Source: Xanthomonas hortorum pv. cynarae (lineage in GTDB: Bacteria; Pseudomonadota; Gammaproteobacteria; Xanthomonadales; Xanthomonadaceae). Taken from it: 64,000 nucleotides of DNA. Of the stretch, positions 2,612 through 41,241 are shown piece by piece. The position numbers and the translations under genes are program-made. The stretch's first letter is position 1. Each line of letters begins with the position of its first letter. The stretch spans positions 59,891 to 123,890 of the forward strand of contig NZ_MDFM01000008.1 in assembly GCF_002939985.1 (NCBI RefSeq). The letters run 5' to 3'. The notes below the pieces were generated by a model. That model ran no database searches, was not told where the DNA came from, and saw nothing but the letters and a program-made list of their open reading frames with translations.

Positions 2612-3184
2612 GTGTCATCGTCGCTGCGCTGGTACGCCTGGCTCGCGCTCTGGGTCGCTCTGCCCTGTATGGCGCAGCAGAAGGTGCATTCCATCGACCC
2701 GGTGCAATCGCGCTTCGGGTTCGAGATCAGAACGCGCTTCGGCATGAAGATCGAGGGGTTCTTTCCGCGTTTTCGCGGTGAACTGGTGGAGTTGCCCGAT
2801 AAACGCCAACAGGTGCGCTTCCGGCTGGACGCCACCCAGGTGGAAATCCCCGGCAAGGACCGCTACACCGCGTGGATGCGCGGCGAGGATTTCTTCGATG
2901 TCGCCCAGTACCCGGTGGTGGAATTCGAGTCGCTTCCCTACACCGAGGAGGTGGTGAAGAAGGGCGGTGACATCACCGGCAACCTGACCATTCGCGGAAT
3001 CACCCACATCGAGACCCTGCATGTGGCGCCAGCTGAATGCGCGCGGCCGGGCTATGATTGCGACGTGATCAGTCGTGGGACGGTGCTGCGTGGACGTTAC
3101 GGAATGAATGCGTGGCAGATGGCCCTGGGTGACAGGGTGACGTTCGTTCTGCGTGGGCGGTTGCAGGAGGCGCGGCGCCCGTGA
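2612..3184 (+). CDS. YceI-family periplasmic protein
   Basis: A 190-residue lipocalin-like YceI protein, a family that binds polyisoprenoid or fatty acyl ligands in the periplasm. It begins with a hydrophobic signal segment (LRWYAWLALWVALPCMAQ), and the mature part has family features such as HSIDPVQSRFGFEIRTRFG and the MRGEDFFDVAQYP block. The GTG at 2612 is used because it supplies the complete signal peptide; the next ATG would cut it off. Its stop overlaps the start of the next gene by four bases (GTGA), implying translational coupling with the phospholipase-D-like lipoprotein. Confidence 0.85.
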   Translation: MSSSLRWYAWLALWVALPCMAQQKVHSIDPVQSRFGFEIRTRFGMKIEGFFPRFRGELVELPDKRQQVRFRLDATQVEIPGKDRYTAWMRGEDFFDVAQYPVVEFESLPYTEEVVKKGGDITGNLTIRGITHIETLHVAPAECARPGYDCDVISRGTVLRGRYGMNAWQMALGDRVTFVLRGRLQEARRP

Positions 3185-5226
3185 GTTTCCTGTTGAGGGT
3201 GCTTGTGCTGGCAACGCTGTTGCTCGGCACCGGATGCGCCGGCCTGTCGCAAATCGAACGCAACCGCGCCGCAGGCGTGGCCGCCGCCGCGCGCAGCACG
3301 GTGGTGAGCTGTGACCAGGCCAATCGTTGCGCGCTGCCCTCGCCGTTACGCGCGCTGGGCGGCGAGGCGATCACGGCCTCCACCCCGGCCGCGCCCCGGC
3401 ATTACGCCACCATTGTCGATCATGGCGAAGCCTCGTTGGTTGCGCGCTTGAATCTGATCCGCAGCGCCACCCGCAGCATCGATCTGCAGACCTATATTTT
3501 CGACAAGGACGACAGCGCACGCATGGTGCTGGATGCGCTGATGGACGCGGCGCAACGCGGGGTCAAGGTGCGCATTTTGATCGACCAGCTGTCGGCGATC
3601 GCCGATCTGCAGATCCTCGGCGCGCTGTCCAGCACCCACGAAAACCTGCAGCTGCGCATCTACAACCCCACCTTCGGCAAGGTCAAACTCAATTACTTCG
3701 ACTACGCCGGCAGCGTGGTGTGCTGTTTTCGCCGTTTCAACCAGCGCATGCACAACAAGCTGCTGGTGGTGGACGATGTGCTCGGCGTGGTCGGTGGCCG
3801 CAACTACCAGGACGACTATTTCGACTGGGACAGCGAATACAACTTCCGCGACCGCGACGTGATTCTGGCCGGCCCGGAAGTGCGTGCGATGGCGGTGAAT
3901 TTCGATGCGTTCTGGCGCGCACAGCGCAGCGTGCCGGCCGAGCGCCTGAACGATGTCGGCCGCCTGTTGCTGGAGCAGGGCGCACCGGCGATGCCGCCGG
4001 CCGAGTTTCGCCGCCCGGATCGGGTGGCACGCGTGGACCGTGAAGCGCGCGATCCACAGTTCATCCGCGATGTGTTCGTGACCCCGGCCATGCCGGTGCA
4101 GCGGGTGTTGTACGTGGCCGATCTGCCGCAGAAACACCGCAAGGAACATGCCGCCAAGGCGGTGTCTACCGCGCCCGAGCTGGACGGCCTGATCGCCGGC
4201 GCGCAGCAGGAAGTGTTGCTGCAGACGCCGTATCTGGTGTTGTCCGATGAAGCGCAGGAGATCTTCCGCGCACTGCGCAAGCGCCCGCAGCCGCCGCGCA
4301 TCGTGGTCTCGAGCAATAGCCTGGCGGCCACCGACAATCCGATCGTGTATGCGCTGTCGTACAAGTTCAAACGCCGCAATCTGCGCGAGCTGGGCTTCAA
4401 CGTTTACGAATTCAAGCCGTTTCCGCTGGATGCACCGGTGGATTACGCCAATCTGGTGCCCGACCCGCTCAACCCGGAGGCCGCCGAGCCGGCCGAGGGC
4501 GACAGCCGTGTCAATCGCGTGATCAGCGGCAGTGCCGCCGGCAATGCGGTGCGTGGCAGCGGTGGCAGCAATAGCAACAGTGGCAGTGGCAGTGGCAGTG
4601 GAACACCAGGGAGTGCCCTTCGCGGCAGCGGCGGTGGCGCGGGTCGTGCGCCCGGCGGCAGCGAGGTCGATCGGCGTGTGCTGCGTACCGAAACGCGGCC
4701 TTCGTTTCTCGGCACGCGTGCGGTCAACAAGCCGCTGCCGGTCACCCGCGCCGGCGCGCGCATGGGCCTGCATGCCAAGTCGTTGGTGGTGGACCGGCGT
4801 ATCGGTGTGATTGGCACGCACAACTTCGACCCGCGCAGCGAAAACTACAACACCGAGGCGGCGGTGGTGATCGACGATGCGCGCTTTGCGCAGGCGCTGG
4901 CTGCCAGCATCGAGCGCGACATCGCCCCGGAAAATGCCTGGACCGTGGCCTCGCGCGAAAAGCCGCCGGTGCTGAGCGGACTGAACTACAGCGTGGGCAA
5001 GGTGTCCGAATCGCTGCCGGTGCTGGATTTCTGGCCCTGGCGCTATGCCACCAATTACGAATTCCAGCCTGGCCCCGGCTGCCCGTTCCCACTCAAGCGC
5101 CAGGATCCGCAGTTCCGGCAGTGCTATGTGGCGGTGGGCGACTTCCCCGAGGTCAACGTCGGCCCGAAGTGGTTGCTGGTGCGGATGCTGACCGCCTTCG
5201 GTGCCGGCCTGGTGCAGATTCTGTGA
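3181..5226 (+). CDS. Phospholipase D-like lipoprotein (cardiolipin synthase-like)
   Basis: A 681-residue protein with two HxKxxxxD phospholipase D motifs: HNKLLVVDD near residue 191 with [11 protein letters not shown] after it, and HAKSLVVDR near residue 531 with [13 protein letters not shown] after it. A lipobox (LLLGTGCAG) at the N-terminus predicts membrane anchoring outside the cytoplasm. Such proteins transfer phosphatidyl groups or cleave phosphodiester bonds. Between the two halves, around residues 450-495, is a low-complexity Gly/Ser/Asn linker encoded by a GGCAGTGGCAGT-like tract at about 4552-4670. GTG start, overlapping the yceI stop. Confidence 0.85.
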
Positions 5227-5357
5227 TCGCATAGGCGCGCCGCTCACTGGCCGCTATCGTGACGATATGTCTCTGGCGCGGAGACGGAACTGCGCCTGGA
5301 TCAATCAGGGCAGTCAGCGACAGTTGAACCAGATCCTCCGGGCGCAGATGCTGTTGC

Positions 5358-5462
5358 GATTCCCGATTCCCGATTCCCGATTCCCGATTCCCGATTCCAA
5401 ATCTCCAATCTCCAATCTCCAATCCCCAATCCCCAATCCCCAATCCCCAATCCCCAATCCCC
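5358..5462. repeat. Heptanucleotide tandem tract, 15 units
   Basis: Fifteen consecutive 7-bp units in perfect register: six of the GATTCCC type, three AATCTCC, six AATCCCC. The tract ends six bases before the ATG of the thioesterase gene and takes the place where its Shine-Dalgarno sequence should be. Related heptads occur at 24003-24073 and 59025-59055. Confidence 0.9.
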
Positions 5463-5467
5463 AGCCT

Positions 5468-5896
5468 ATGACCTTCCGCGACCCCGTCGATCTTGCTGCC
5501 CTCAACGCCTCCAGTCGCGACACCTTGATCGAACATCTGGGCATCGTGTTCACCGACGCTGGCGACGATTGGTTGCGCGCCACCATGCCGGTGGATTCGC
5601 GCACCAAGCAGCCGTACGGCTTGCTGCACGGCGGTGCGTCGGTGGTGCTGGCCGAAACCCTGGGCAGTAGCGCCGGCAATCTGTGCGTGGAGATGACCAC
5701 TCAGATGTGCGTGGGGTTGGAGATCAACGCCAACCATCTGCGTGCGGCGTATCAGGACGTGGTCACTGGCACCGCGCGCGCCGTGCATATCGGGCGCAGC
5801 ACGCAGGTGTGGGACATCACCATCGAAAACCCGGCCGGCAAGCGCGTGTGCGTTTCGCGGCTCACCTTGGCCGTGGTCCCGCGCAGCAATGGCTGA
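5468..5896 (+). CDS. Hotdog-fold acyl-CoA thioesterase (PaaI/YbgC-like)
   Basis: A 142-residue hotdog-fold thioesterase. The signature [18 protein letters not shown] carries the HGG motif and the catalytic acidic residue that follows it, as in the PaaI / 1,4-dihydroxy-2-naphthoyl-CoA thioesterase group. It should hydrolyse an acyl- or aroyl-CoA in the cytoplasm; the natural substrate is unknown. The ATG at 5468 gives the normal family length. The frame stays open upstream through the heptad tract, but that part encodes only repetitive [12 protein letters not shown]-type sequence. No Shine-Dalgarno is visible because the tract abuts the start codon. Confidence 0.8.
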
Positions 5897-6013
5897 GCCC
5901 GCCGTGCAAGCACATGGGTGGAACAGCGCCACCCGCTGCCGGCACTGCGCGCGTGCCAAGCTGCTGTCACAATAGTCGCGCTTCCTTCCCCTGGTACCGG
6001 TCCCGTTCCTGCA

Positions 6014-6817
6014 ATGAGCGAGTCATCCCTGGACGCCACGCGCGATGCTGGCGGCGTGCTGCGTTGGTTCCGGTACCTGTATCGGGTACCGCTACTGCTG
6101 GTGCACCTGAGCATCTGTCTGCCGATCACCATGCTGTGCGTGGTGGCGCCGCCGCTGGCGCGCATCCGTACCGGCCACGACGACACCCTGGACGAGTGGA
6201 TGATCCGCTGGTGGCAGGGCAATCTGATGCGCATCTTCGGATTTCGTTTGCGTCACTTCGGCACTCCGCTGCCGGGCGCTGCGTTGTTCGTCGCCAATCA
6301 CGTCAGCTGGATCGACATCTCGATGCTGCACAGCCAACGCGTGATGGGCTTTGTGGCCAAGCGCGAGATCGCCGGCTGGCCGCTGGTGGGCTGGCTGGCG
6401 GCCAAGGGCCAGACCATCTTCCATCAGCGCGGCAATACCGAATCGCTGGGCGGCGTGCTGCAGGAAATGCTGGCGCGGCTGCAAAGCGGCAAGCCGGTGG
6501 GCGTGTTTCCGGAAGGGCGCACCCGCGGCGGCACCGAGGTCGGCCCGTTCCATGCGCGCATCTTCCAGGCCGCGGTCGAGGCCGGCGTGCCGGTGCAACC
6601 GGTGGCGTTGCGTTACGGCGAGCGCGGCAATGCGCAGGCGGTGGTGGCGTTCGGCGAGCGCGAGAGTTTCTTCGACAATATCGTGCGTCTGCTCGGCGAG
6701 CCGGCGCGGCTGGCCGAAGTGCATTTTCTCGAGCCGATCCGCGCGCTGGATATCGACGGACGTCGCCGCCTGGCCGACACCTCGCGTCAACGCATCATTG
6801 CGGCCATGGAGTCCTAG
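6014..6817 (+). CDS. 1-acyl-sn-glycerol-3-phosphate acyltransferase (PlsC-like)
   Basis: A 267-residue PlsC-family acyltransferase. An N-terminal membrane segment ([18 protein letters not shown]) precedes the catalytic HX4D motif in VANHVSWID near residue 95 and the acceptor-binding FPEGRTRGG near residue 165. It would acylate lysophosphatidate at the sn-2 position in the inner membrane during phospholipid synthesis. The ATG at 6014 is chosen over an upstream in-frame ATG at 5918 because the extra residues have no family similarity. A second, shorter family member lies at 60129-60758, so this may not be the only PlsC activity. Confidence 0.85.
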
Positions 6818-13471: not shown

Positions 13472-13486
13472 TGGCACGGTCCCTGC
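13472..13486 (+). promoter_or_regulatory. Sigma-54 promoter of glnA
   Basis: TGGCACGGTCCCTGC matches the RpoN consensus TGGCAC-N5-TTGC with one change. The invariant GG (13473-13474) and GC (13485-13486) are 12 bp apart start to start, as required. Transcription should begin near 13497, giving a short leader before the glnA ATG at 13534. Confidence 0.85.
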
Positions 13487-13533
13487 TGTAGTACCGCCCA
13501 CGAGCCACTTAACTTCCCCTGAGGTTTCTTCCG

Positions 13534-17306: not shown

Positions 17307-18355
17307 TTCCTTCCTCGATGCCATCGCTGGACAGCCTGGGCACCCCGGTGGCCTGGGCCGACCGCGAGGGCCGTGTGCTGGGCGTCAATCCAGCCTTCGC
17401 GCGCTGGCTTGGCGTCAGCGCACGGCGCCTGGTCGATCAACCGCTGGCCGCGCTGGAAGTACAGGGCGATGCGCTCGCCCGCTTCCTGCTCAACGACGAG
17501 CGCGATGTGCTGCGTCTGCATCGGCTGGCCCTGGGCCTGCCCAACGACGCACCGCGCTTTGCCGAAGGCTGGCTGTCGCGGCTGGACGACGGCGGCTGGC
17601 TGCTGGAAACCCACCCGGTCGACGAATTCCCCGCGCTGGATCCCACCCATGCACTGCCTAACGCCCTGAGCGCTGCGCTCAAGGGTCTGGCGCATGAGCT
17701 GCGTAATCCGCTGGCCGGGTTGAAGGGCGCCGCACAGCTGCTGGCGCGCCGTTCGGCTGGGCGCGACGAGGACGAGCGTGAGCTGATCGAATTGATCGGC
17801 ACCGAGATCGAACGCCTCAACACCTTGCTCGAACGCCTGCTCTCGCCCACGCCGGCACGCCCGCACGACCGCCTCAATATCCATGTCGTGCTGGAGCGCG
17901 TGCTGCGCCTGGCCGAAGCCGAGGGGGGCTGGTCGGTGCAGGTGCAACGCGATTACGACCCCAGCATTCCCGACATCCTTGGCGATGGCGATCGCCTCAC
18001 CCAGGCGGTGTGGAATCTGGTGCGCAATGCGTTCCAGGCCGGCGCCACCCGCGTCACCTTGCGCACCCGCGTCGAACATGGCCAGCGCATCCGCGACCGC
18101 GTGCATGCGATGTCGCTGCGGCTGGAGATCATCGACGACGGCGGCGGTGTGCCCGAAGAACTGGCCGAGCATCTGTTCCTGCCGCTGGTCAGCGGGCGCG
18201 CCGAAGGCAGTGGTCTAGGCCTGGCGTTGGCCCAGCAAGTCTCGCGCGAACACCACGGCACCCTGACCTACCGCTCGCGCGCCGGCCATACCGTTTTCAC
18301 CCTGCTGCTGCCCGAGCTGGCCGGCGATCACGACAAGGAGCATCTGCATGGCTGA
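17300..18355 (+). CDS. glnL: Nitrogen sensor kinase NtrB (GlnL)
   Basis: A 351-residue cytoplasmic histidine kinase/phosphatase. An N-terminal PAS domain (GTPVAWADREGRVLGVNPAF) is followed by the H-box LAHELRNPLAGLKGAAQ with phosphorylated His132, then the N-box region LVRNAFQAGA, the G1 box IIDDGGGVPEEL and the G2 box GSGLGLALAQQV. Under GlnK control it phosphorylates or dephosphorylates NtrC. The ATG at 17300 abuts an NtrC operator; a weaker alternative start is the ATG at 17318. Its end overlaps glnG by eight bases. Confidence 0.93.
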   Translation: MVIPSSMPSLDSLGTPVAWADREGRVLGVNPAFARWLGVSARRLVDQPLAALEVQGDALARFLLNDERDVLRLHRLALGLPNDAPRFAEGWLSRLDDGGWLLETHPVDEFPALDPTHALPNALSAALKGLAHELRNPLAGLKGAAQLLARRSAGRDEDERELIELIGTEIERLNTLLERLLSPTPARPHDRLNIHVVLERVLRLAEAEGGWSVQVQRDYDPSIPDILGDGDRLTQAVWNLVRNAFQAGATRVTLRTRVEHGQRIRDRVHAMSLRLEIIDDGGGVPEELAEHLFLPLVSGRAEGSGLGLALAQQVSREHHGTLTYRSRAGHTVFTLLLPELAGDHDKEHLHG

Positions 18356-19778
18356 GGCCGCCGCCGCATCCCACCATATCTGGGTGGTCGACGACGACCG
18401 TTCGGTCCGCTTCGTGCTGTCCACCGCTTTGCGCGATGCCGGCTACGCCGTGGATGGCTTCGAGAGTGCCGCCGCTGCGCTGCAGGCACTGGCCATGCGG
18501 CCCACGCCCGATTTGCTGTTCACCGATGTGCGCATGCCCGGCGAAGACGGCCTGACCCTGCTCGACAAACTCAAGTCCAAGCACCCGCAATTGCCGGTGA
18601 TCGTGATGTCGGCCTACACCGATGTGGCCAGCACTGCCGGCGCGTTTCGCGGCGGTGCGCACGAGTTCCTCTCCAAGCCGTTCGACCTGGACGACGCGGT
18701 GGCCCTGGCCGCACGCGCGCTGCCGGATGCCGATGCCGGCGTCGACGCACTGGTCGGCGTGCCGGTGGCGCAAGGCTCGGCCGCACTGATCGGCGACACC
18801 CCGGCGATGCAGGCGTTGTTCCGCGCCATCGGCCGGCTCGCGCAGGCACCGCTGTCGGTGCTGATCAACGGCGAAACCGGCACCGGCAAGGAACTGGTCG
18901 CACGCGCGCTGCACAACGAATCGCCGCGTGCGCGCAAATCCTTCGTTGCCCTCAACACTGCCGCCATTCCTGCAGAATTGCTGGAAAGCGAATTGTTCGG
19001 CCACGAAACCGGCGCTTTCACCGGTGCCACCAAACGGCATATCGGCCGTTTCGAACAGGCCGATGGCGGAACGTTGTTTCTGGACGAAATCGGCGACATG
19101 CCGCTGCCGCTGCAGACCCGTTTGCTGCGCGTGCTGGCAGAGAACGAATTCTTCCGTGTCGGTGGGCGCGAACTCATCCGTGTCGACGTGCGCGTGATCG
19201 CCGCCACCCACCAGGACCTGGAAGCGCTGGTCGAACAAGGCCGCTTCCGTGCCGACTTGCTGCATCGCCTGGACGTGGTGCGTCTGCAATTACCGCCGCT
19301 GCGCGAACGCCGCGGCGACATCGCGCAACTGGCCGAAAACTTCCTGGCCATGGCCGGGCGCAAGCTCGACATGCTGCCCAAACGGCTGTCGTCGGCCGCC
19401 TTGGAAGGCCTGCGCCACTACGACTGGCCCGGCAACGTGCGCGAACTGGAAAACGTGTGCTGGCGCCTGGCCGCCTTGGCCACCGCCGACATCATCGACG
19501 TGGTCGATGTGGAAGCCGCATTGGCGCGTGGCGGCCGTCGCCAACGCGCCGGCCGCAGCGACGGGCAATGGGACGAGATGCTCTCCAGCTGGGCCGCGCA
19601 GCGCCTGAGCGAAGGCGCCCAGGGACTGCACGCCGAAGCCCGCGAACGCCTCGACAAGACCCTGCTCGAAGCCGCCCTGCAACTCACCCAGGGCCGCCGC
19701 GCCGAGGCCGCCGCACGCTTGGGCTTAGGCCGCAACACCGTCACCCGCAAACTCGGCCCAGGCCGCAAACGCCGCTGA
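18348..19778 (+). CDS. glnG: Nitrogen response regulator NtrC (GlnG)
   Basis: A 476-residue sigma-54 activator. Order: receiver domain (VVDDDRS, phosphoacceptor Asp60 in LLFTDVRMPGEDG, conserved Lys in LSKPFD), AAA+ domain (Walker A GETGTGKE, the sigma-54-contacting GAFTGA loop, Walker [12 protein letters not shown], and the [11 protein letters not shown] motif), and a C-terminal Fis-type HTH (GRRAEAAARLGLGRNTVTRK). Phosphorylated by GlnL, it binds the sites seen upstream of glnA and glnL and drives RpoN transcription under nitrogen limitation. Overlap with glnL indicates translational coupling. Confidence 0.95.
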   Translation: MAEAAAASHHIWVVDDDRSVRFVLSTALRDAGYAVDGFESAAAALQALAMRPTPDLLFTDVRMPGEDGLTLLDKLKSKHPQLPVIVMSAYTDVASTAGAFRGGAHEFLSKPFDLDDAVALAARALPDADAGVDALVGVPVAQGSAALIGDTPAMQALFRAIGRLAQAPLSVLINGETGTGKELVARALHNESPRARKSFVALNTAAIPAELLESELFGHETGAFTGATKRHIGRFEQADGGTLFLDEIGDMPLPLQTRLLRVLAENEFFRVGGRELIRVDVRVIAATHQDLEALVEQGRFRADLLHRLDVVRLQLPPLRERRGDIAQLAENFLAMAGRKLDMLPKRLSSAALEGLRHYDWPGNVRELENVCWRLAALATADIIDVVDVEAALARGGRRQRAGRSDGQWDEMLSSWAAQRLSEGAQGLHAEARERLDKTLLEAALQLTQGRRAEAAARLGLGRNTVTRKLGPGRKRR

Positions 19779-33462: not shown

Positions 33463-35190
33463 GTGGCGAAGAAAAAGACGTTGGCGCGGTTTCTGGCCGA
33501 GACGCTGCAGAGCGCGGGGGTGGAGCGGATCTGGGGTGTGACCGGCGACAGCCTCAACGGCTTGACCGATGCCTTGCGTGAGATGCAGACGATCGAGTGG
33601 ATGCATGTGCGCCACGAAGAAGTCGCCGCATTCGCCGCTGGCGCCGAGGCGGCGGTGACCGGCCAGCTGGCCGTGTGTGCGGGCAGCTGCGGGCCGGGCA
33701 ATCTGCACTTGATCAACGGGCTGTTTGATTGCCATCGCAGCCGTCAGCCGGTGCTGGCGATCGCCGCGCATATTCCCTCGTCCGAGATCGGGCTGAGTTA
33801 TTTTCAGGAGACCCATCCGCAGGAGTTGTTCCGCGAGTGCAGTCACTTCGTGGAGTTGGTGACCAACCCGGCGCAGCTGCCGGAAGTGCTGCATCGGGCG
33901 ATGCGCACCGCCATCCTGCAGCAGGGTGTGGCGGTGGTGGTGATCCCCGGCGATATCGCGTTGCTGGAAATGGACAAGCACGTGTCCAGTGCCTGGCCGC
34001 AACTGCGCCAGCCGCGCGTGTTGCCAGCCGCCGAAGACGTGGCGCAGTTGGCCGAGCTGTTGCAGCGAAGCGAGGCGATCACGCTGTTGTGCGGCAGCGG
34101 CTGCGCGGGTGCACACGATGCGGTGGTGGCGTTGGCCGACACCCTGGGCGCGCCGATCGTGCACGCGTTGCGCGGGAAAGAATATGTGGAGTGGGAAAAC
34201 CCGTTCGATGTCGGCATGACCGGTTTGATCGGTTTTAGTTCCGGCTACCACGCGATGCTCAACTGCGACACCTTGATCATGCTGGGTACGGATTTCCCGT
34301 ATCGGCAGTTCTACCCGAAGGACGCGACCACCGTGCAGGTGGATCGCGACCCGAGCGCATTGGGACGGCGCACGCCCTTGCAACTGGGTATCGCAGCGGA
34401 TGTTGGCGAAACCATTGCCGCCTTGCTGCCGCACTTGCAGCGGCGCGAGAAGCGCGACTTCCTGGAGAAATCGCTTGCGCATTACCGCAAGGCACGCGAG
34501 GGGCTGGACGATCTGGCGGTGCCGGCAGACCCGGGCGAGCCGCTGCATCCGCAATTCGTGGCGCGAATGATCAGCCAGATCGCCGACCAGGACGCAGTGT
34601 TTACCTGCGATGTCGGCACGCCGACGGTGTGGGCCGCGCGCTATCTGCGCATGAACGGACAACGCCGTTTACTCGGCTCGTTCAATCACGGTTCGATGGC
34701 CAATGCGATGCCGCAGGCGCTGGGTGCGCAAGCGGCGTTTCCGGGTCGTCAGGTGATTTCGCTGTCTGGCGATGGCGGCTTTGCGATGTTGATGGGCGAC
34801 TTCATCTCGCTGGCGCAGCTGCGTCTGCCGGTGAAGATCGTGGTGTTTAACAATGCCTCGCTGGGATTTGTGGCGATGGAGATGAAGGCCGCGGGTTATC
34901 TGGATACCGGCACCGAGTTGCGCAATCCGGACTTCGCTGCGATGAGCAATGCGATGGGCATTTTGGGCATCCGTGTCGATGAGTCGTCGCAGCTGGAACG
35001 TGCATTGCGGCAGGCCTTTGCGCATTCCGGCCCGGCGTTGGTGGATGTGCGCATCGCCACGCAGGAACTGGCAGTGCCGCCGGCGATCAAGCTGGAACAG
35101 GCCAAGGGGATGGGCCTGTATCTGCTCAAGGCGGTGATGAGCGGGCGCGGTGATGAAGTCATCGATCTGGTCAAGACCAATATGCGTTAA
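33463..35190 (+). CDS. poxB: Thiamine-diphosphate-dependent pyruvate dehydrogenase (quinone)-like
   Basis: A 575-residue ThDP enzyme of the pyruvate oxidase group: TPP-PYR domain with the catalytic glutamate in [16 protein letters not shown], a central FAD/Rossmann-like domain, and a TPP-PP domain with [14 protein letters not shown]. PoxB oxidises pyruvate to acetate and CO2 and feeds electrons to ubiquinone at the membrane. The C-terminal stretch after residue 530 ([20 protein letters not shown]) fits the lipid-binding tail seen in PoxB. The GTG at 33463 follows CTGGAG. A related acetolactate-like activity is less likely. Confidence 0.87.
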
Positions 35191-35237: not shown

Positions 35238-36680
35238 ATGCCTCGTTCGTTGTTGCGCCAATTGCTGTTGATCTGGGTGGTGATCCTGGCCGCCTGCGTG
35301 GGCGTGGCCACGATGTTGTATGGCCTGTACCGACAGACAGAAGGCGTGCGGCTGGATGAGGCGCGCCAGCAATTGACCGCGCAGTGCACGCGCATCGTGC
35401 AGCGCTACGCCGGCGCAAGCGAGGCCGCACGCAGTGGCGACAACGGGGCCGGGCTGGCGGCGGTGGTGGTGCAGTTGGTGCTGGCCGACGCGCCCGGTGT
35501 GGAAGGCGGGGTGTGGAATCTCGACAAGGGATTTATTGCGTACGCCTATCCCACCTACGACGGCAGCGATCACAAGACCGATATCCCCGCCGCTGAGTGG
35601 ACCACGATTGTCAGTACCGCACGGCAAAGTGCAATGGGCAACAAGGCGGTGGAATTTCGTCGCGATGGCAGCCGCGAAGTGGTGTTGATCAGCGCGTGTC
35701 CGCTGGCCTCGGGCACCGCCGCATGGACCATGTCGCGAGTGCCGGCGAGCACCTCCGATGCCTGGCGGCCGTTGGTGATCGGCATGCTGCTGATCTTCGC
35801 CATGGTGGCGGTGTCGGCGATTGCGTTAGGCGTGGTGGTACGGCGTTGGAGTCAGCGCCTGCAGCGGATCCAGCAGGCGCTCGCCGCCGATACCGAGCTG
35901 CCGCAGATTCCGGTCACCGGCGCACCCGAGCTGGATCGGTTGGGCGCTGCGGTGAGCGACTACGCACAGCGTAATGCGCAAGCGCTGGCGCAGACACGGC
36001 GGCTGGCCGACGAGCTATCCCGGCACGAACGTCTGGCCGCACTCGGACGCCTGACCGCCACGGTGGCGCACGAAATTCGCAACCCCATCGCCACGATGCG
36101 CCTGGCGGTGGAGAACGAGATCGCCAGGCGCGAAGCGACGCCGGAAGATGCGGCGCACGGCGAGCTGATGCTGGGGCAGATCCGCCGCCTGGATGGGGTG
36201 GTCGAAAGCCTGCTCGGCATGGTGCAGCCGATCCGTCTGCAGTTGGAAACGGTGGTGGTGCAGGACTGGTTGGCGACCTTGCTGGATCCAGCCTTGCTAC
36301 CGCCAGGCACGCTGGCGCCACAGTTGCGCGTGCCTGCTATGCCGTTGCAATGGACGCTCGACCCGCAGCAGCTCGGACGCGCCGTGCACAATCTGCTGCG
36401 CAACGCGTTGCAGCACGCCGACGCAGGCAGCACGGTGACATTGGAGGCCAGCGCCAGCGATGATTTGTTGCAGCTACAGGTCTGCAATCGCGGCGCGGCG
36501 ATTGCCAAGACCATTGCAGCGCAGTTGTTCGAGCCGTTCGTCAGCGGTCGCAGCGATGGCAATGGCCTCGGCCTTGCCCTGGTGCGCGAGATCGCACGCG
36601 CGCATGGCGGGCAGGTGCGTTACGTACATGCCGACGGCATGACCCATTTCATTGTGGAGCTGCCATGGCGCGCATCCTGA
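35238..36680 (+). CDS. Membrane sensor histidine kinase of an NtrC-type pair
   Basis: A 480-residue sensor kinase. First membrane segment at residues 6-30 (LLLIWVVILAACVGVATML), a periplasmic sensor of about 140 residues (containing GVWNLDKGFIAYAYPTYDG), a second segment (PLVIGMLLIFAMVAVSAIALGVVV), a HAMP-like linker, then the H-box ATVAHEIRNPIATMRL and the ATPase boxes NLLRNALQHA and SDGNGLGLALVREIA. No known ligand domain is recognised in the sensor. It overlaps the response regulator gene by 16 bases, so the two are certainly a pair. Confidence 0.9.
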   Translation: MPRSLLRQLLLIWVVILAACVGVATMLYGLYRQTEGVRLDEARQQLTAQCTRIVQRYAGASEAARSGDNGAGLAAVVVQLVLADAPGVEGGVWNLDKGFIAYAYPTYDGSDHKTDIPAAEWTTIVSTARQSAMGNKAVEFRRDGSREVVLISACPLASGTAAWTMSRVPASTSDAWRPLVIGMLLIFAMVAVSAIALGVVVRRWSQRLQRIQQALAADTELPQIPVTGAPELDRLGAAVSDYAQRNAQALAQTRRLADELSRHERLAALGRLTATVAHEIRNPIATMRLAVENEIARREATPEDAAHGELMLGQIRRLDGVVESLLGMVQPIRLQLETVVVQDWLATLLDPALLPPGTLAPQLRVPAMPLQWTLDPQQLGRAVHNLLRNALQHADAGSTVTLEASASDDLLQLQVCNRGAAIAKTIAAQLFEPFVSGRSDGNGLGLALVREIARAHGGQVRYVHADGMTHFIVELPWRAS

Positions 36681-38005
36681 TCATCGATGACGACGCGGCG
36701 TTTCTTGCCACCTTGCAGGCAACGCTGCGCTCGCTCGGCCATACGGTGATCGCGGTCGATAACGGCGCCGATGGATTGGCGCGCTTGAACGAGGGCGGTA
36801 TCGAGCTGGCGTTCGTGGACTTCCGCATGTCCGGGATGGACGGGATCCAGGTGCTGCGCGCACGTGCGGACGATGCCCGTGCGCGTCAGGTGCCGTTGGT
36901 GATGCTCACCGCGTACGCGTCCAGCGGCAACACCATCGAAGCGATGACGCTGGGTGCGTTCGATCACCTGGTCAAACCGGTTGGGCGTGCCGATATCATC
37001 GAGGTGGTGGAGCGTGCATTGGCAAGTCGCGCCGACACCGGCGCCGATACCGCGGCGACCGAGCTGCCTGAAGACGACGATGCACTGGTCGGCCACAGCC
37101 CGGCGATGCGTAACGTGCACAAACGCATCGGGCTGGCGGCAGCCTCCGATTTGCCGGTGTTGATCACAGGCGAGACCGGCACCGGCAAGGAGCTGGCTGC
37201 GCGTGCCTTGCACCGTGCCAGCGCACGCGCGAATGCGGCGTTCGTGGCGGTCAATTGCGCCGCGATTCCGTTGGAGCTGATGGAGAGCGAGTTGTTCGGC
37301 CATCGCAAGGGCGCGTTTTCCGGGGCGACCGGCGACCGCATCGGCCTGATTCGCGAGGCCGATGGCGGCACGCTGTTTCTGGACGAGATCGGCGACATGC
37401 CGCTGCCGATGCAGGCCAAGTTGCTGCGCTTTCTGCAGGAAGGTGAAGTGACGCCCCTGGGTGGCCGCGGCGCGCAGAAGGTGGATGTGCGCGTGCTGGC
37501 GGCCACGCATCGCGATCTGGCCGCGTGGGTGGCGGCTGGGCAGTTTCGCAGCGACCTGCGTTATCGCCTGAATGTGGTGCCGATCGAGCTGCCGCCGCTG
37601 CGCGAACGCGGGCAGGACATCGTGCTGCTTGCGCAGTATTTTCTGCGCAACGGCGAAGGCGCAGCGCGTGCGTTATCGCCGGACGCGCAAGCACGGCTGC
37701 TGGTCTATCCGTGGCCCGGCAACGTGCGTGAGCTACGGAATGTGATGCAACGCAGTCAGCTGCTGGTGCGTGGCCACAGCATCACCGCCGAGGATCTGGA
37801 CGAGGCGCTTGGTCACAGTGCCGAGCAACCCATGACGACGGCGCCGCTGGAAGGCACCTTGCCCGAGGCAGTAGCGCGTCTGGAAAAGCAGATGATCCAC
37901 GACGCATTGGCGCACAGTGGCGGTAACCGCGCCGAAGCCGCGCGCCGGCTCGGCATTCATCGTCAGCTGCTGTATCGCAAGCTCGATGAGTATGGGTTGC
38001 AGTAG
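36665..38005 (+). CDS. Sigma-54-dependent response regulator
   Basis: A 446-residue NtrC-type activator. Receiver ([10 protein letters not shown], phosphoacceptor Asp52 in [11 protein letters not shown], Lys in HLVKPV), AAA+ domain (Walker A GETGTGKE, sigma-54 loop GAFSGA instead of GAFTGA, Walker [23 protein letters not shown]), and a Fis-type HTH at the end ([20 protein letters not shown]). The Thr-to-Ser change in the loop is conservative. It should activate RpoN promoters; a good candidate promoter lies 300 bp downstream at 38306, ahead of the repeat-domain genes. Confidence 0.93.
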
Positions 38006-38214
38006 TCGCAGCGATAAAAACCGAATGCGATGTTTGCAGGCTGGCGGAGTCGATGTTTTGGCTGCGATGCAGTACGCGCACAGCAACACGCGCACATGTG
38101 GGTGATTGCATGCCGCCGTTTCCACACGCAGTGCTTGGCCACTGGTGTCCACAGCAGACCTTGCGCCGGAAGAGTGCTTGCTTTCGCACAGTCATGCATA
38201 ACGAGGCTGCAAGG

Positions 38215-38231
38215 TGTCTGCAAAGCGGACA
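38215..38231 (+). promoter_or_regulatory. Candidate activator-binding inverted repeat
   Basis: TGTCTGCAAAGCGGACA: seven-base arms with one mismatch around AAA, the same 7-3-7 architecture as NtrC sites but a different sequence. Its centre is about 109 bp upstream of the start predicted from the sigma-54 promoter at 38306, a usual enhancer distance. A second inverted repeat, CAGTG-N6-CACTG, lies at 38129-38144. Binding by the response regulator upstream is inference. Confidence 0.45.
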
Positions 38232-38305
38232 GTGGTGTATGAAACGCAGACGCTCATTCGTAAAGCTGCATGTACAAAACCCTTGAAAAACAACGCATCC
38301 GACGT

Positions 38306-38320
38306 TGGCACGATTGCTGC
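38306..38320 (+). promoter_or_regulatory. Sigma-54 promoter ahead of repeat-domain genes
   Basis: TGGCACGATTGCTGC matches TGGCAC-N5-TTGC with one change, with the invariant GG and GC 12 bp apart, exactly as at glnA. The predicted start is near 38332, and the ATG of the downstream gene is at 38367. The rest of the gap 38006-38366 has no coding sequence that I can support. Confidence 0.78.
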
Positions 38321-38366
38321 TTTGTCTTCAGGGCAAGCGGCGCTCCTGCCGCCCTGGAGACATCAC

Positions 38367-39167
38367 ATGATTCGTCAGACCGCACTCGCTTTCGCACTGG
38401 CCTGCAGCGTGGCGACTGCCGCCGCGCAGGTTCCTGCAGCGCCGGCCGCACCGGTTGCCCCGCGTCCGCCGGTCGGCACGCCACCACCGGCGGCGCCGAT
38501 GCCGCCCGCACCACCTGCACCGGTAGCCGCTACCCCGGTGAGTGTGACCGGCACCGTCGAGCGCTTCATGCTCAATCCCAACGGCGAGGTCGACGGCCTG
38601 TGGTTGCGCGATGGCACCCAGGTGGCGTTTGCGCCGCATTTGTCCGGCGAACTGCAGGCAGCCGTGCGCCGTGGCGATGCGGTCACCGTGCAGGGTTATC
38701 GCCTGGGCAGCCTGCCGGTGCTACGTGCCAGCAGCATCCGTTCCACGCGTGGTGGGCGCGAGGTGGTCGACCGACCGCCGACGACCGCCGCCATGCCGCC
38801 CGCGCCTCCGGCGCCCGCCGCATTGACGCCGTTGCAGGCCGAGGGACGCATCGAGCGGTTGGTCTATGGCCCCGGTGGCGAGACCAATGGCGCATTGCTG
38901 AGCGATGGCACGCTGGTGCGGATGCCGCCGCATCTGGCGCTGCAGTTCGGCGATTTGTTGCGCACCGGTGCGCCGCTGAGCGTAAGCGGCTTCGGTGTTG
39001 CCGCGGCCACCGGCCGCGCCATCGAAGCCACGCAGTTGGGTCGCGATCGTGCCTCGCAGCGCGCCTTGTTCAGTCCTCCGCGCCCGGATGGTCCGGTGCC
39101 GCCCGCACCACCGGCGCCGCCTGTCCCGCCGGCCGCACCGCCACCGCCGGCTCCGGCGCCGCGTTGA
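38367..39167 (+). CDS. Secreted Pro/Ala-rich protein with two repeated domains
   Basis: A 266-residue protein with a signal peptide (MIRQTALAFALACSVATAAA) and three Pro/Ala-rich stretches, including a C-terminal one of about 30 residues. Between them are two copies of a short domain: GTVERFMLNPNGEVDGLWLR...APHLSGEL and GRIERLVYGPGGETNGALLS...MPPHLALQF, each continuing into a valine-rich VSGFG/VQGYR-like strand. I know no named family; an OB-like fold is a guess. The ATG at 38367 follows CTGGAGA. It lies behind a sigma-54 promoter and next to a paralogous gene at 39299. Confidence 0.75.
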   Translation: MIRQTALAFALACSVATAAAQVPAAPAAPVAPRPPVGTPPPAAPMPPAPPAPVAATPVSVTGTVERFMLNPNGEVDGLWLRDGTQVAFAPHLSGELQAAVRRGDAVTVQGYRLGSLPVLRASSIRSTRGGREVVDRPPTTAAMPPAPPAPAALTPLQAEGRIERLVYGPGGETNGALLSDGTLVRMPPHLALQFGDLLRTGAPLSVSGFGVAAATGRAIEATQLGRDRASQRALFSPPRPDGPVPPAPPAPPVPPAAPPPPAPAPR

Positions 39168-39298
39168 TCCACCGCGCCGTCGCACACGCGGCGGCGCTCA
39201 CACCGTTCCTCTCTATGCGCCTTTCCTGCCACGTGTCATGCGTGGCGACGGGCGCGGCTTGCCGGCGTTGGCCGGTCCTACTTTCGTTGGAGTTTTTC

Positions 39299-39913
39299 AT
39301 GCATTGGGTCGATCCTGATTTCCTTCCCGAAACCCGCGGCACGCTGGCGCGCTTTCTGCTCAATCCCAAGGCCGATATCGATGGCCTGCTGCTGACCGAT
39401 GGCACCGAAGTGCACACGCCGCCGCATCTGTCTGCCGCCTTGCTCAAGGCGCTCAAGCCCGGCAGCGCGTTGACCGTGCGTGGCCTCAAGCCGCGCGATG
39501 TGGACATGCTGGTGGCACTGGCGATCGATCCGGAAGGCGGCAAGCGCATTCTCGATGAAGGCCCGCATGGGCCGCACGTCAAACCCAAGCCCAAACCGCC
39601 TGCCGGCAAGCCACCCAAGCCGCAACGTACCCAGCACAGCGGCACCATTGCGCGGTTGCTGCACGGCCCGCATGGGCAAGTGCATGGCGTGTTGCTGGAT
39701 GACGGGGTCACGGTGCGGTTTCCACCGCATGCTGGCGCCGACTTTTCCAAGCAGCTGATCGTCGGCAAGGCGCTGGTGGCAGAAGGCGAGACCCAGGCGA
39801 CGCCGCACGGCGTGCTGATCCACGCGCATGCGTTGGGCGCCAAGGCCGCGTCGCTGAAGCAGATCGAGCATCCGCATGGCCCGGGTGCACATAAACCAAA
39901 GCCCAAGCACTAG
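39299..39913 (+). CDS. Repeat-domain protein paralogous to the secreted gene upstream
   Basis: A 204-residue protein without a signal peptide. Two copies of the same short domain as its neighbour (GTLARFLLNPKADIDGLLLT...TPPHLSAAL and GTIARLLHGPHGQVHGVLLD...FPPHAGADF) are joined by a basic Lys/Pro linker (KPKPKPPAGKPPKPQ); the tail is again Lys/Pro/His-rich. It would stay in the cytoplasm, and the basic linker suggests nucleic-acid or polyanion contact, which is speculation. GTTGGAG precedes the ATG. The gap of about 130 bases to the upstream gene has no terminator, so co-transcription is likely. Confidence 0.75.
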   Translation: MHWVDPDFLPETRGTLARFLLNPKADIDGLLLTDGTEVHTPPHLSAALLKALKPGSALTVRGLKPRDVDMLVALAIDPEGGKRILDEGPHGPHVKPKPKPPAGKPPKPQRTQHSGTIARLLHGPHGQVHGVLLDDGVTVRFPPHAGADFSKQLIVGKALVAEGETQATPHGVLIHAHALGAKAASLKQIEHPHGPGAHKPKPKH

Positions 39914-40017: not shown

Positions 40018-41241
40018 ATGCGCATGAGCACAGCGCGTCCACGTGGCAGCCGCGCGCTGGAAGCGCTGCATTTCAGCGTGGCCGATGTGCAGGACGGGCT
40101 GGGGCCGTTTCTCAGCGTGTTTTTGCAATCCAAGGGCTGGTCGGTGGCGGCGATCGGTACAGTAATGAGTGTGGGCGGTATTGCCGGCATGCTTGCCACC
40201 ACGCCGGCCGGTGCACTGGTCGATACCACCCGGCGCAAGCGCGCCGTGGTGGTGGTCGGCTGTCTGGCGATTCTGTTGGCCACTGCACTGATCTGGCTGC
40301 GGCCGAGCTCCTCCGGTGTGGTCGCCGCACAGATCGTCTCGGCGTTGGCGGCAGCCGGCATCGGCCCGGCGCTCACCGGCATCACCTTGGGGCTGGTGCA
40401 TGCGCGTGGGTTCGATCATCAACTGGCGCGCAATCAGGTCGCCAACCATGCCGGCAACATGCTGGCCGCACTATTGGCCGGCTGGCTGGGATGGCGGTAC
40501 GGGTTTGCGGCGATCTTTGTGCTCACCGCAGCTTTCGGCGTGCTGGCGATCGTGGCGGTGTGGCTGATTCCGTCGGCGGCCATCGACCATCGCGCAGCGC
40601 GCGGTCTGGGCAACACCGACGGCACGGACACTCTCAGTGGTTGGCGCGTCTTGTTGACCTGCCGACCGCTGGCGTTGCTGGCCGTCACCCTGGGGCTGTT
40701 CCATCTGGGCAATGCGGCGATGTTGCCGCTCTACGGCATGGCGATCGTGGCCGCGCATGCGGGCGACCCGAGTGCGCTGACGGCCACCACGATTGTGGTG
40801 GCGCAGGCCACGATGGTGGTGGTGGCGTTGTTGGCGATGCGCTGGATCCGCGTGCACGGACATTGGTGGGTGTTGCTGGTGGCGTTCATGGCGTTGCCAT
40901 TGCGCGCGCTGGTCGCCGCATCGCTGATCCAGGGCTGGGGCGTGTTTCCGGTGCAGATGCTCGATGGACTCGGTGCCGGCCTGCAGGCCGTGGTGGTGCC
41001 GGCGCTGGTGGCGCGTTTGCTGCAGGGCACCGGGCGCGTCAATGTCGGTCAGGGTGCGGTGATGACGGTGCAAGGTGTGGGCGCGGCGCTGAGCCCGGCA
41101 TTCGGTGGCTGGCTGGCGCACGCCTTCGGCTATCGCATCGCGTTTCTGGCGCTGGGCGCGATCGCGTTGTTGGCGGTGGCGCTGTGGGCAGGCTGTCGCG
41201 GCATGTTGCGGGCAGCGATCGATGTGCAAGCGGTGCAGTGA
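40018..41241 (+). CDS. Major facilitator superfamily transporter
   Basis: A 407-residue MFS protein with about twelve hydrophobic segments. An early FSVADVQDGLGPFLSVFLQS block and the loop 2-3 signature region GALVDTTRRKRAVV (in place of GxLaDrxGrkx) are visible. Charged, short cytoplasmic loops fit a 12-span proton-driven importer or exporter. The substrate is unknown; similar proteins are annotated as drug or sugar efflux pumps. The ATG at 40018 has GGAG about ten bases upstream, with another in-frame ATG two codons later. Confidence 0.85.
   Translation: MRMSTARPRGSRALEALHFSVADVQDGLGPFLSVFLQSKGWSVAAIGTVMSVGGIAGMLATTPAGALVDTTRRKRAVVVVGCLAILLATALIWLRPSSSGVVAAQIVSALAAAGIGPALTGITLGLVHARGFDHQLARNQVANHAGNMLAALLAGWLGWRYGFAAIFVLTAAFGVLAIVAVWLIPSAAIDHRAARGLGNTDGTDTLSGWRVLLTCRPLALLAVTLGLFHLGNAAMLPLYGMAIVAAHAGDPSALTATTIVVAQATMVVVALLAMRWIRVHGHWWVLLVAFMALPLRALVAASLIQGWGVFPVQMLDGLGAGLQAVVVPALVARLLQGTGRVNVGQGAVMTVQGVGAALSPAFGGWLAHAFGYRIAFLALGAIALLAVALWAGCRGMLRAAIDVQAVQ

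Follow-up and report, generated by a model that had tools for sequence, protein, structure and literature searches.

What does a kinase-regulator pair switch on when it stands beside two genes for proteins built from the same repeated domain, and what do those proteins do? The question is raised by a locus of Xanthomonas hortorum pv. cynarae, analysed within a stretch of 64,000 nucleotides of contig NZ_MDFM01000008.1 (the window). A sensor histidine kinase gene (35238..36680, + strand; Pfam HisKA and HATPase_c) overlaps by 16 nt the gene of an NtrC-type response regulator (36665..38005, +; Pfam Response_reg, Sigma54_activat, AAA lid and HTH_8/Fis). Gene 1 (38367..39167, +), gene 2 (39299..39913, +) and the gene of a major facilitator superfamily (MFS) transporter (40018..41241, +), conserved behind gene 2, follow. 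The open reading frames and the kinase-regulator pair agree with an earlier reading of this DNA (the original prediction), as judged from the open reading frame list and the Pfam domains; the kinase start at 35238, a second operator at 38236, a weak stretch resembling a site for integration host factor (IHF) and the MFS gene are additions to it. Comparison of related loci makes it very likely that this is a classical sigma-54 enhancer system in which the NtrC-type pair controls the target genes. We also consider it likely that the whole forms a dedicated sigma-54 two-component module whose products bind a small compound and export it.

The control region in Xanthomonas

The sigma-54 promoter TGGCACGATTGCTGCT (-24/-12 type, 38306..38321, +; expected start near 38332) shows zero mismatches to TGGCACGN5TGCW. 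Operator 1, the inverted repeat TGTCTGCAAAGCGGACA (38215..38231, +), lies 91 bp upstream of the -24 element, start to start, and is present as originally predicted. In 29/29 Xanthomonas loci the spacing from repeat to promoter is 90-92 bp, the sigma-54 site begins 61-64 bp before gene 1 and the element matches at 9-11 of 11 positions; the distance from the regulator end to gene 1 is variable (171-651 bp in the same 29 loci). TGGCAC is kept in 27 of these sites, the other two (L014, L020) having TGGCAT. Little of the flanking sequence is conserved; the exceptions are the ribosome-binding region, an A/T-rich stretch and a weaker second element that follows the repeat at a distance of 21 bp. In the window the second element is operator 2, TGTATGAAACGCAGACG (38236..38252, +), a degenerate copy recognised by alignment, and the A/T-rich stretch (38273..38298, no strand) is weakly IHF-like. 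The nearest named loci are those of Xanthomonas sp. LMG 31884 and X. hortorum jj2001 (95-100% over the six proteins compared). According to the original prediction, genes kept without promoter and repeat would speak against the circuit; in the comparison, promoter and repeat are conserved with the genes.

Both elements rise above chance because their spacing is kept in all 29 loci; the single-genome statistics are weak, and it is the comparison across loci that rules out chance sites. The window holds 3 perfect sigma-54 sites. Allowing at most one mismatch there are 12 against 7.0 expected, a number reached in 5/100 shuffles, and the sigma-54 site alone is therefore weak evidence. As a loose pattern with 3 mismatches the repeat is not commoner than chance (13 in the window, 13.3 expected); its exact form TGTCYGCN3GCGGACR has a single occurrence in the genome. 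A spaced search of the genome (operator, gap of 70-80 bp, sigma-54 site) returned 3 places, one of which is 38215. The likeness of the promoter to that of glnA, also claimed in the original prediction, is fair: a perfect site at 13472-13487 precedes an open reading frame that we take to be glutamine synthetase, with a presumably NtrBC-like pair farther down (17687-19754). The consensus is quoted as TGGCACN5TTGCW in the accessible part of PMC7280030.

Regulator and target genes are absent together. Among 297 genomes of the family, clear gene 1 relatives occur in 16/18 of the window's genus and in 13 of a second genus (g7, probably part of Xanthomonas sensu lato), and nowhere else; 10/39 matched genomes (E 1e-4 to 8e-4) were counted as chance. 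At least four further g7 genomes (G111, G186, G202, G214) are not among the gene 1 matches. In two members of the window's genus without gene 1 (G175, G254) the best regulator match is 47-48%, i.e. the ortholog is missing, and in six further members of the family or order that lack gene 1 it is 47-49%. Gene 2 was read in 26 of the 29 loci; it lies on a separate contig in G092, and the small g7 genomes G170 and G226 gave gene 1 matches only, with a regulator ortholog in each (77% and 76% identity).

We note that the window contains a second gene with a sigma-54 promoter. It encodes a secreted 153-residue protein with repeats of the TLxTVQVRPSAEQ type (42361-41900, - strand) behind a perfect promoter (42534-42519, -), with a TGTCC-N6-GGACA palindrome 59 bp upstream and an IHF-like stretch; the region can be aligned between the window and 21 named Xanthomonas loci, a few of the copies being changed. 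Relatives of this protein occur in 77/294 genomes of the family. The palindrome, as TGTCC-N5..8-GGACA, is present in 25/30 loci read: 12/15 of the window's genus (N6) and 13/15 of other genera (N7, 59-61 bp). The other genera with the N7 palindrome (17-bp form) have no gene 1, and absence of the regulator was checked for two of them (G001, G029).

It is conceivable that the operator at 38215 serves another sigma-54 activator of similar specificity, for instance that of the 42361-41900 gene. In favour of this, that gene has a similar palindrome with a sigma-54 promoter, and so do its counterparts in genera that lack gene 1 and, as far as checked, the window's regulator. The promoter spacing differs, however (59-61 vs 89-92 bp), and the Xanthomonas copies have N6; moreover, the layout at -91 tracks the window's regulator across Alpha-, Beta- and Gammaproteobacteria, and regulator and targets disappear together. 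We regard this explanation as very unlikely, and control by the adjacent NtrC-type pair is preferred.

The layout and the pair beyond Xanthomonas

A domain-profile search found relatives in 9/398 Pseudomonadota genomes, the window's own included, and in 16/250 genomes of one family (f108; the match in G1056 is weak, and those contigs of G1095 are short and lack the pair). The profile reached further than gene 2 alone as query, for which a class-wide search gave nothing credible outside its own genome (2/369 genomes including its own; the other at E 8e-4). Plasmid records were also searched at the protein level; 21 matched, mostly from Caballeronia, Paraburkholderia and Burkholderia, with others from Methylocystis, Acidiphilium, Bradyrhizobium, Methylocapsa and Spirosoma, and regions from 14 of the 21 were fetched.

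Among 37 larger non-Xanthomonas loci, 27 have the same kinase and regulator and 10 do not. The 27 regulators are 49-60% identical to that of the window. Burkholderiaceae and Alphaproteobacteria show the same layout, with TGTCC-N7-GGACA at about -91 and in many cases again at about -69. The spacing is 89-93 bp in 23/27 of the pair-bearing loci and shifted or single in 4/27 (L090, 101/80; L127, 100/68; L132, 69; L230, 68). Where the pair is missing the layout is also missing near the gene in 9/10 loci, the exception being L125, perfect at 91 bp. In Paraburkholderia 22B1P the kinase and regulator genes lie downstream in the opposite direction and gene 1 keeps both operators. Operator conservation is thus not a side effect of adjacency, because the operators stay at gene 1 when the pair is displaced.

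The regularity extends to 56 upstream regions, in which the best operator-promoter pair falls at 89-93 bp in 47, at 68-70 in 7 and at 80 in 1 and is absent in 1 (L142). Left out of this count are L146, whose match at E 3e-4 was attributed to chance, L152, a second contig from the genome that holds L142, L067, from the same genome as L092, and L068-L070, whose genes lack the pair. Of 1120 dinucleotide shuffles, 18 gave any pair that good and 1 gave it at 89-93 bp; the operator pattern was drawn from the same loci and the relatives are non-independent, so that these figures describe regularity, not probability. Divided into 29 Xanthomonas promoters, 15 from other-genome loci and 13 plasmid or other promoters, operator scores at a spacing of exactly 91 bp average 7.6, 5.8 and 6.2 of 10, respectively, against a background of about 2.5. 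A second operator of at least 7/10 at 67-71 bp is present in 9/15 other-genome loci, 12/13 plasmid or other promoters and 3/29 Xanthomonas loci; as a strong Xanthomonas site, operator 2 is unsupported. In column conservation pooled over the groups operator 2 is not visible (0.21 bits vs 0.26 elsewhere), and it shows group by group only. The IHF consensus is WATCAANNNNTTR; it is matched at 9/9 positions in 25/57 aligned promoters vs 0.1% of base shuffles (12/29 Xanthomonas and 13/15 other-genome loci).

In the pair itself, PF00072, PF00158, PF25601 and PF02954 all score above cut-off in the window's regulator, which joins receiver, sigma-54 AAA+ and Fis-type helix-turn-helix domains in one protein. 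Its sigma-54 contact loop reads GAFSGA, not GAFTGA, a conservative change; of 40 regulators read from 57 sequences scanned, the window's included, 27 have GAFSGA and 13 GAFTGA. The DNA-reading helix is IHRQLLYxKL in 37/40 and ISRQSLYxKL or ISRQTLYxKL in the other 3. The N-terminal part of the kinase (residues ~25-185) is modelled as a PAS/Cache-like sensor, which would sit in the periplasm; its best Foldseek rows are WalK/YycG extracellular domains, none at E ≤ 0.001. Allowing small changes, the sensor motif EGGxW...AYxxPTYxG..K.D.P.AE is found in 15/16 aligned kinases.

Several observations weigh against a dedicated circuit. Within the window, operator 2 (6/10) and the IHF site (best 7/9) are weak, and a perfect IHF site occurs in 0/13 of the plasmid or other promoters. 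L090 has the kinase-regulator pair without the sensor motif; L125 has the control region and no pair within 12 kb; gene 1 or gene 2 relatives are found in 10 loci without the pair. The anion carriers of L188 and L190 lack a layout of their own, and the MFS scores fall below family cut-offs. The occurrence of a similar palindrome in genera without the window's regulator suggests that the family probably has a second activator of comparable specificity, with which cross-talk is conceivable. Related loci are not independent samples, and the support consists of sequence comparison.

Two sets of loci deserve separate mention. In L125 (5690-5796 and 6618-7685), a metagenome-assembled genome labelled Terriglobia, a label that may be wrong, a permease beside the gene 1 relative is weakly like SO_0444 Cu/Zn exporters, below cut-off. 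Three small genomes of family f218 (L093-L095) encode a secreted two-domain protein without circuit or control region.

Probable target proteins and carriers

The claim that a secreted and a cytoplasmic protein share a repeated domain held up, with two copies in each. The gene 1 protein has a signal-peptide-like start, Pro-rich stretches and domains at ~38532-38744 and ~38826-39047. A structure model predicts it to consist of tandem oligonucleotide/oligosaccharide-binding (OB) folds, each domain appearing in the model as the five-stranded β-β-β-α-β-β barrel of that fold. The gene 2 protein carries its copies at 39326-39532 and 39626-39844 and has no signal-peptide-like start; its linkers are rich in His, Lys and Pro (17, 17 and 25, respectively, in 204 residues). 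No Pfam or NCBIfam model claims the domain in either protein. A sequence search of the PDB gave no relative, the best match being a designed protein at E 0.038. Similarity to DUF5666 (PF18914) is weak and below the gathering score: the best match is gene 1 of Caballeronia (E 0.00049, 20.8 bits vs a cut-off of 27), one of 16 Xanthomonas domains matches at E 0.13, and the window proteins do not match.

A known parallel for an exported OB fold under a two-component system is the BOF family (PF04076), with OmdA, YgiW and YdeI as periplasmic members. Gene 1 might accordingly encode an envelope-stress protein of BOF type that binds cationic compounds in the periplasm, the transporters being secondary. 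In the accessible part of PMC8120321 such a protein of P. aeruginosa is reported to be controlled by CarSR and BqsSR; OmdA is assigned to PmrAB and linked to polymyxin resistance. Here, however, PF04076 gave no match at E ≤ 1 for the window proteins or 16 domains, and none at E ≤ 0.001 in the whole genome, while an E. coli control is detected. The proteins of this locus also differ in having two domains, a cytoplasmic partner and sigma-54 control, and the accessible part of PMC8120321 mentions neither such control nor a cytoplasmic twin. We therefore hold a BOF-type role to be unlikely and retain the dedicated binding and export module.

Carriers recur around the pair. Pair-bearing loci outside Xanthomonas have gene 1 and usually gene 2 and the MFS gene, and some also encode a YdcZ carrier, a carrier of CitMHS/ArsB-like type and a metallophosphoesterase. 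The transporter operons of Methylocystis and Caballeronia SBC2 each possess a separate 91/69 control region; of 7 further genomes with an anion-carrier gene, 5 have such a region at that gene, at 90-93 bp (L184-L187, L091). The pair had been predicted to switch on the two repeat-domain proteins; the conserved control region and the joint absence of regulator and targets support that part, but the regulon appears wider, with transporter operons included. Efflux families rank first in NCBIfam for the MFS protein, though below cut-off, and for the anion carrier the nearest families are ArsB/CitMHS. Eight annotated regions with listed genes, from loci holding the pair or gene 1, have no constant catabolic enzyme.

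These data also bear on the direction of transport. DctBD, MifSR and AtoSC have PAS/Cache-like sensors, NtrC-type regulators and tandem operators upstream of the sigma-54 promoters of transport genes, and a DctBD-DctA-like arrangement is one way to read the locus: the sensor would recognise a wanted organic anion, the carriers would import it and the OB-fold proteins would be accessory binders. The sensor, regulator, tandem operators and sigma-54 promoter fit, as do the CitMHS family carrier in relatives and CitA as one weak sensor row. Targets and operator are different here, however, and no substrate pathway is linked, a catabolic enzyme being constant in none of the regions; the best MFS rows are efflux families, albeit below cut-off, and OB-fold proteins are, to our knowledge, not usual solute receptors. 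Import of this kind seems to us rather unlikely. Export is favoured over import because of the MFS efflux rows, the ArsB/CitMHS-like carrier and the lack of constant catabolic enzymes, but the case is thin.

A proposed sigma-54 module and its surroundings

In the module that we propose, the PAS/Cache-like sensor of the kinase would detect a small compound and the kinase would phosphorylate the NtrC-type regulator. The regulator would bind the TGTCC-N7-GGACA operator, in many relatives two operators placed two helical turns apart on the same face of the DNA. IHF, where its site is present, may bend the DNA, and the regulator would then open sigma-54 RNA polymerase at 38306. Transcription would run through genes 1 and 2 and continue by read-through into the MFS gene. 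The exported and cytoplasmic tandem-domain proteins could bind the same compound or its product on either side of the inner membrane, and the MFS carrier (elsewhere CitMHS/ArsB-like, and YdcZ too) would move the compound, most likely outward.

A metal or metalloid is one candidate ligand, offered as a lead only and suggested by the His-rich gene 2, the ArsB-like carriers and the Cu/Zn-exporter-like permease of L125. Because the sensor motif and the control region vary so little, all the loci may well respond to one ligand; in that case, its identification in a single organism would account for the module in every one. As a tentative idea, possible rather than probable, genes 1 and 2 would be founding members of a two-compartment system. 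In it, duplicated tandem-domain OB-type proteins would hold the same compound in periplasm and cytoplasm. Their production, along with that of the carriers for this compound, would depend on a sensor-regulator pair whose sensor motif, DNA-reading helix and -91/-69 operator layout are largely kept across Alpha-, Beta- and Gammaproteobacteria.

The circuit is of a familiar type, belonging to the NtrC-type sigma-54 systems; its content, i.e. the targets, is not familiar. ZraPSR, a zinc-responsive sigma-54 two-component system, has a kinase and regulator of the same kind and likewise controls a small exported protein. It differs from the present locus, which has a tandem OB-fold target, a cytoplasmic twin and transporters, and no evidence of zinc. 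In NCBIfam AtoS is the best row for the kinase and ZraS the second, both below cut-off, and ZraR is the third row for the regulator; the equivalog cut-offs are missed by ZraS for the kinase (129.8 of 479 bits) and by ZraR for the regulator (383.8 of 760 bits).

The original prediction knew of no described system with this content, in agreement with the literature within the limits of our search. No description of the controlled protein family or of the exported/cytoplasmic pairing was found within those limits, so that an earlier description is possible; the accessible parts of PMC7970052, PMC7280030, PMC8120321 and PMC9088363 do not describe the module. In most loci fetched, this domain family, for which Pfam and NCBIfam have no model of their own, belongs to one regulatory module, found in Xanthomonas, Burkholderiaceae and some Alphaproteobacteria and partly plasmid-borne. 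The loci also offer natural variants of the layout, with operators single or double and some copies displaced by roughly one helical turn, for studying how sigma-54 activators read spacing.

On the other side of the pair, a gene for a ubiquinone-dependent pyruvate dehydrogenase of poxB type (33463..35190, +) ends 47 bp before the kinase gene. This neighbour is present in 25/25 named Xanthomonas loci holding the kinase; a poxB search of the 37 non-Xanthomonas loci gave three distant matches only, to thiamine pyrophosphate (TPP) enzymes (27-33%; L127, L192, L229). In L229 (Paraburkholderia PGU19, 3129-6525) a solo gene 2 relative lies near such a TPP enzyme and a divalent metal transporter gene. 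The enzyme is 33% identical to the window's poxB product over 572 residues, and its position near gene 2, set beside that of poxB before the Xanthomonas kinase, is possibly a coincidence.

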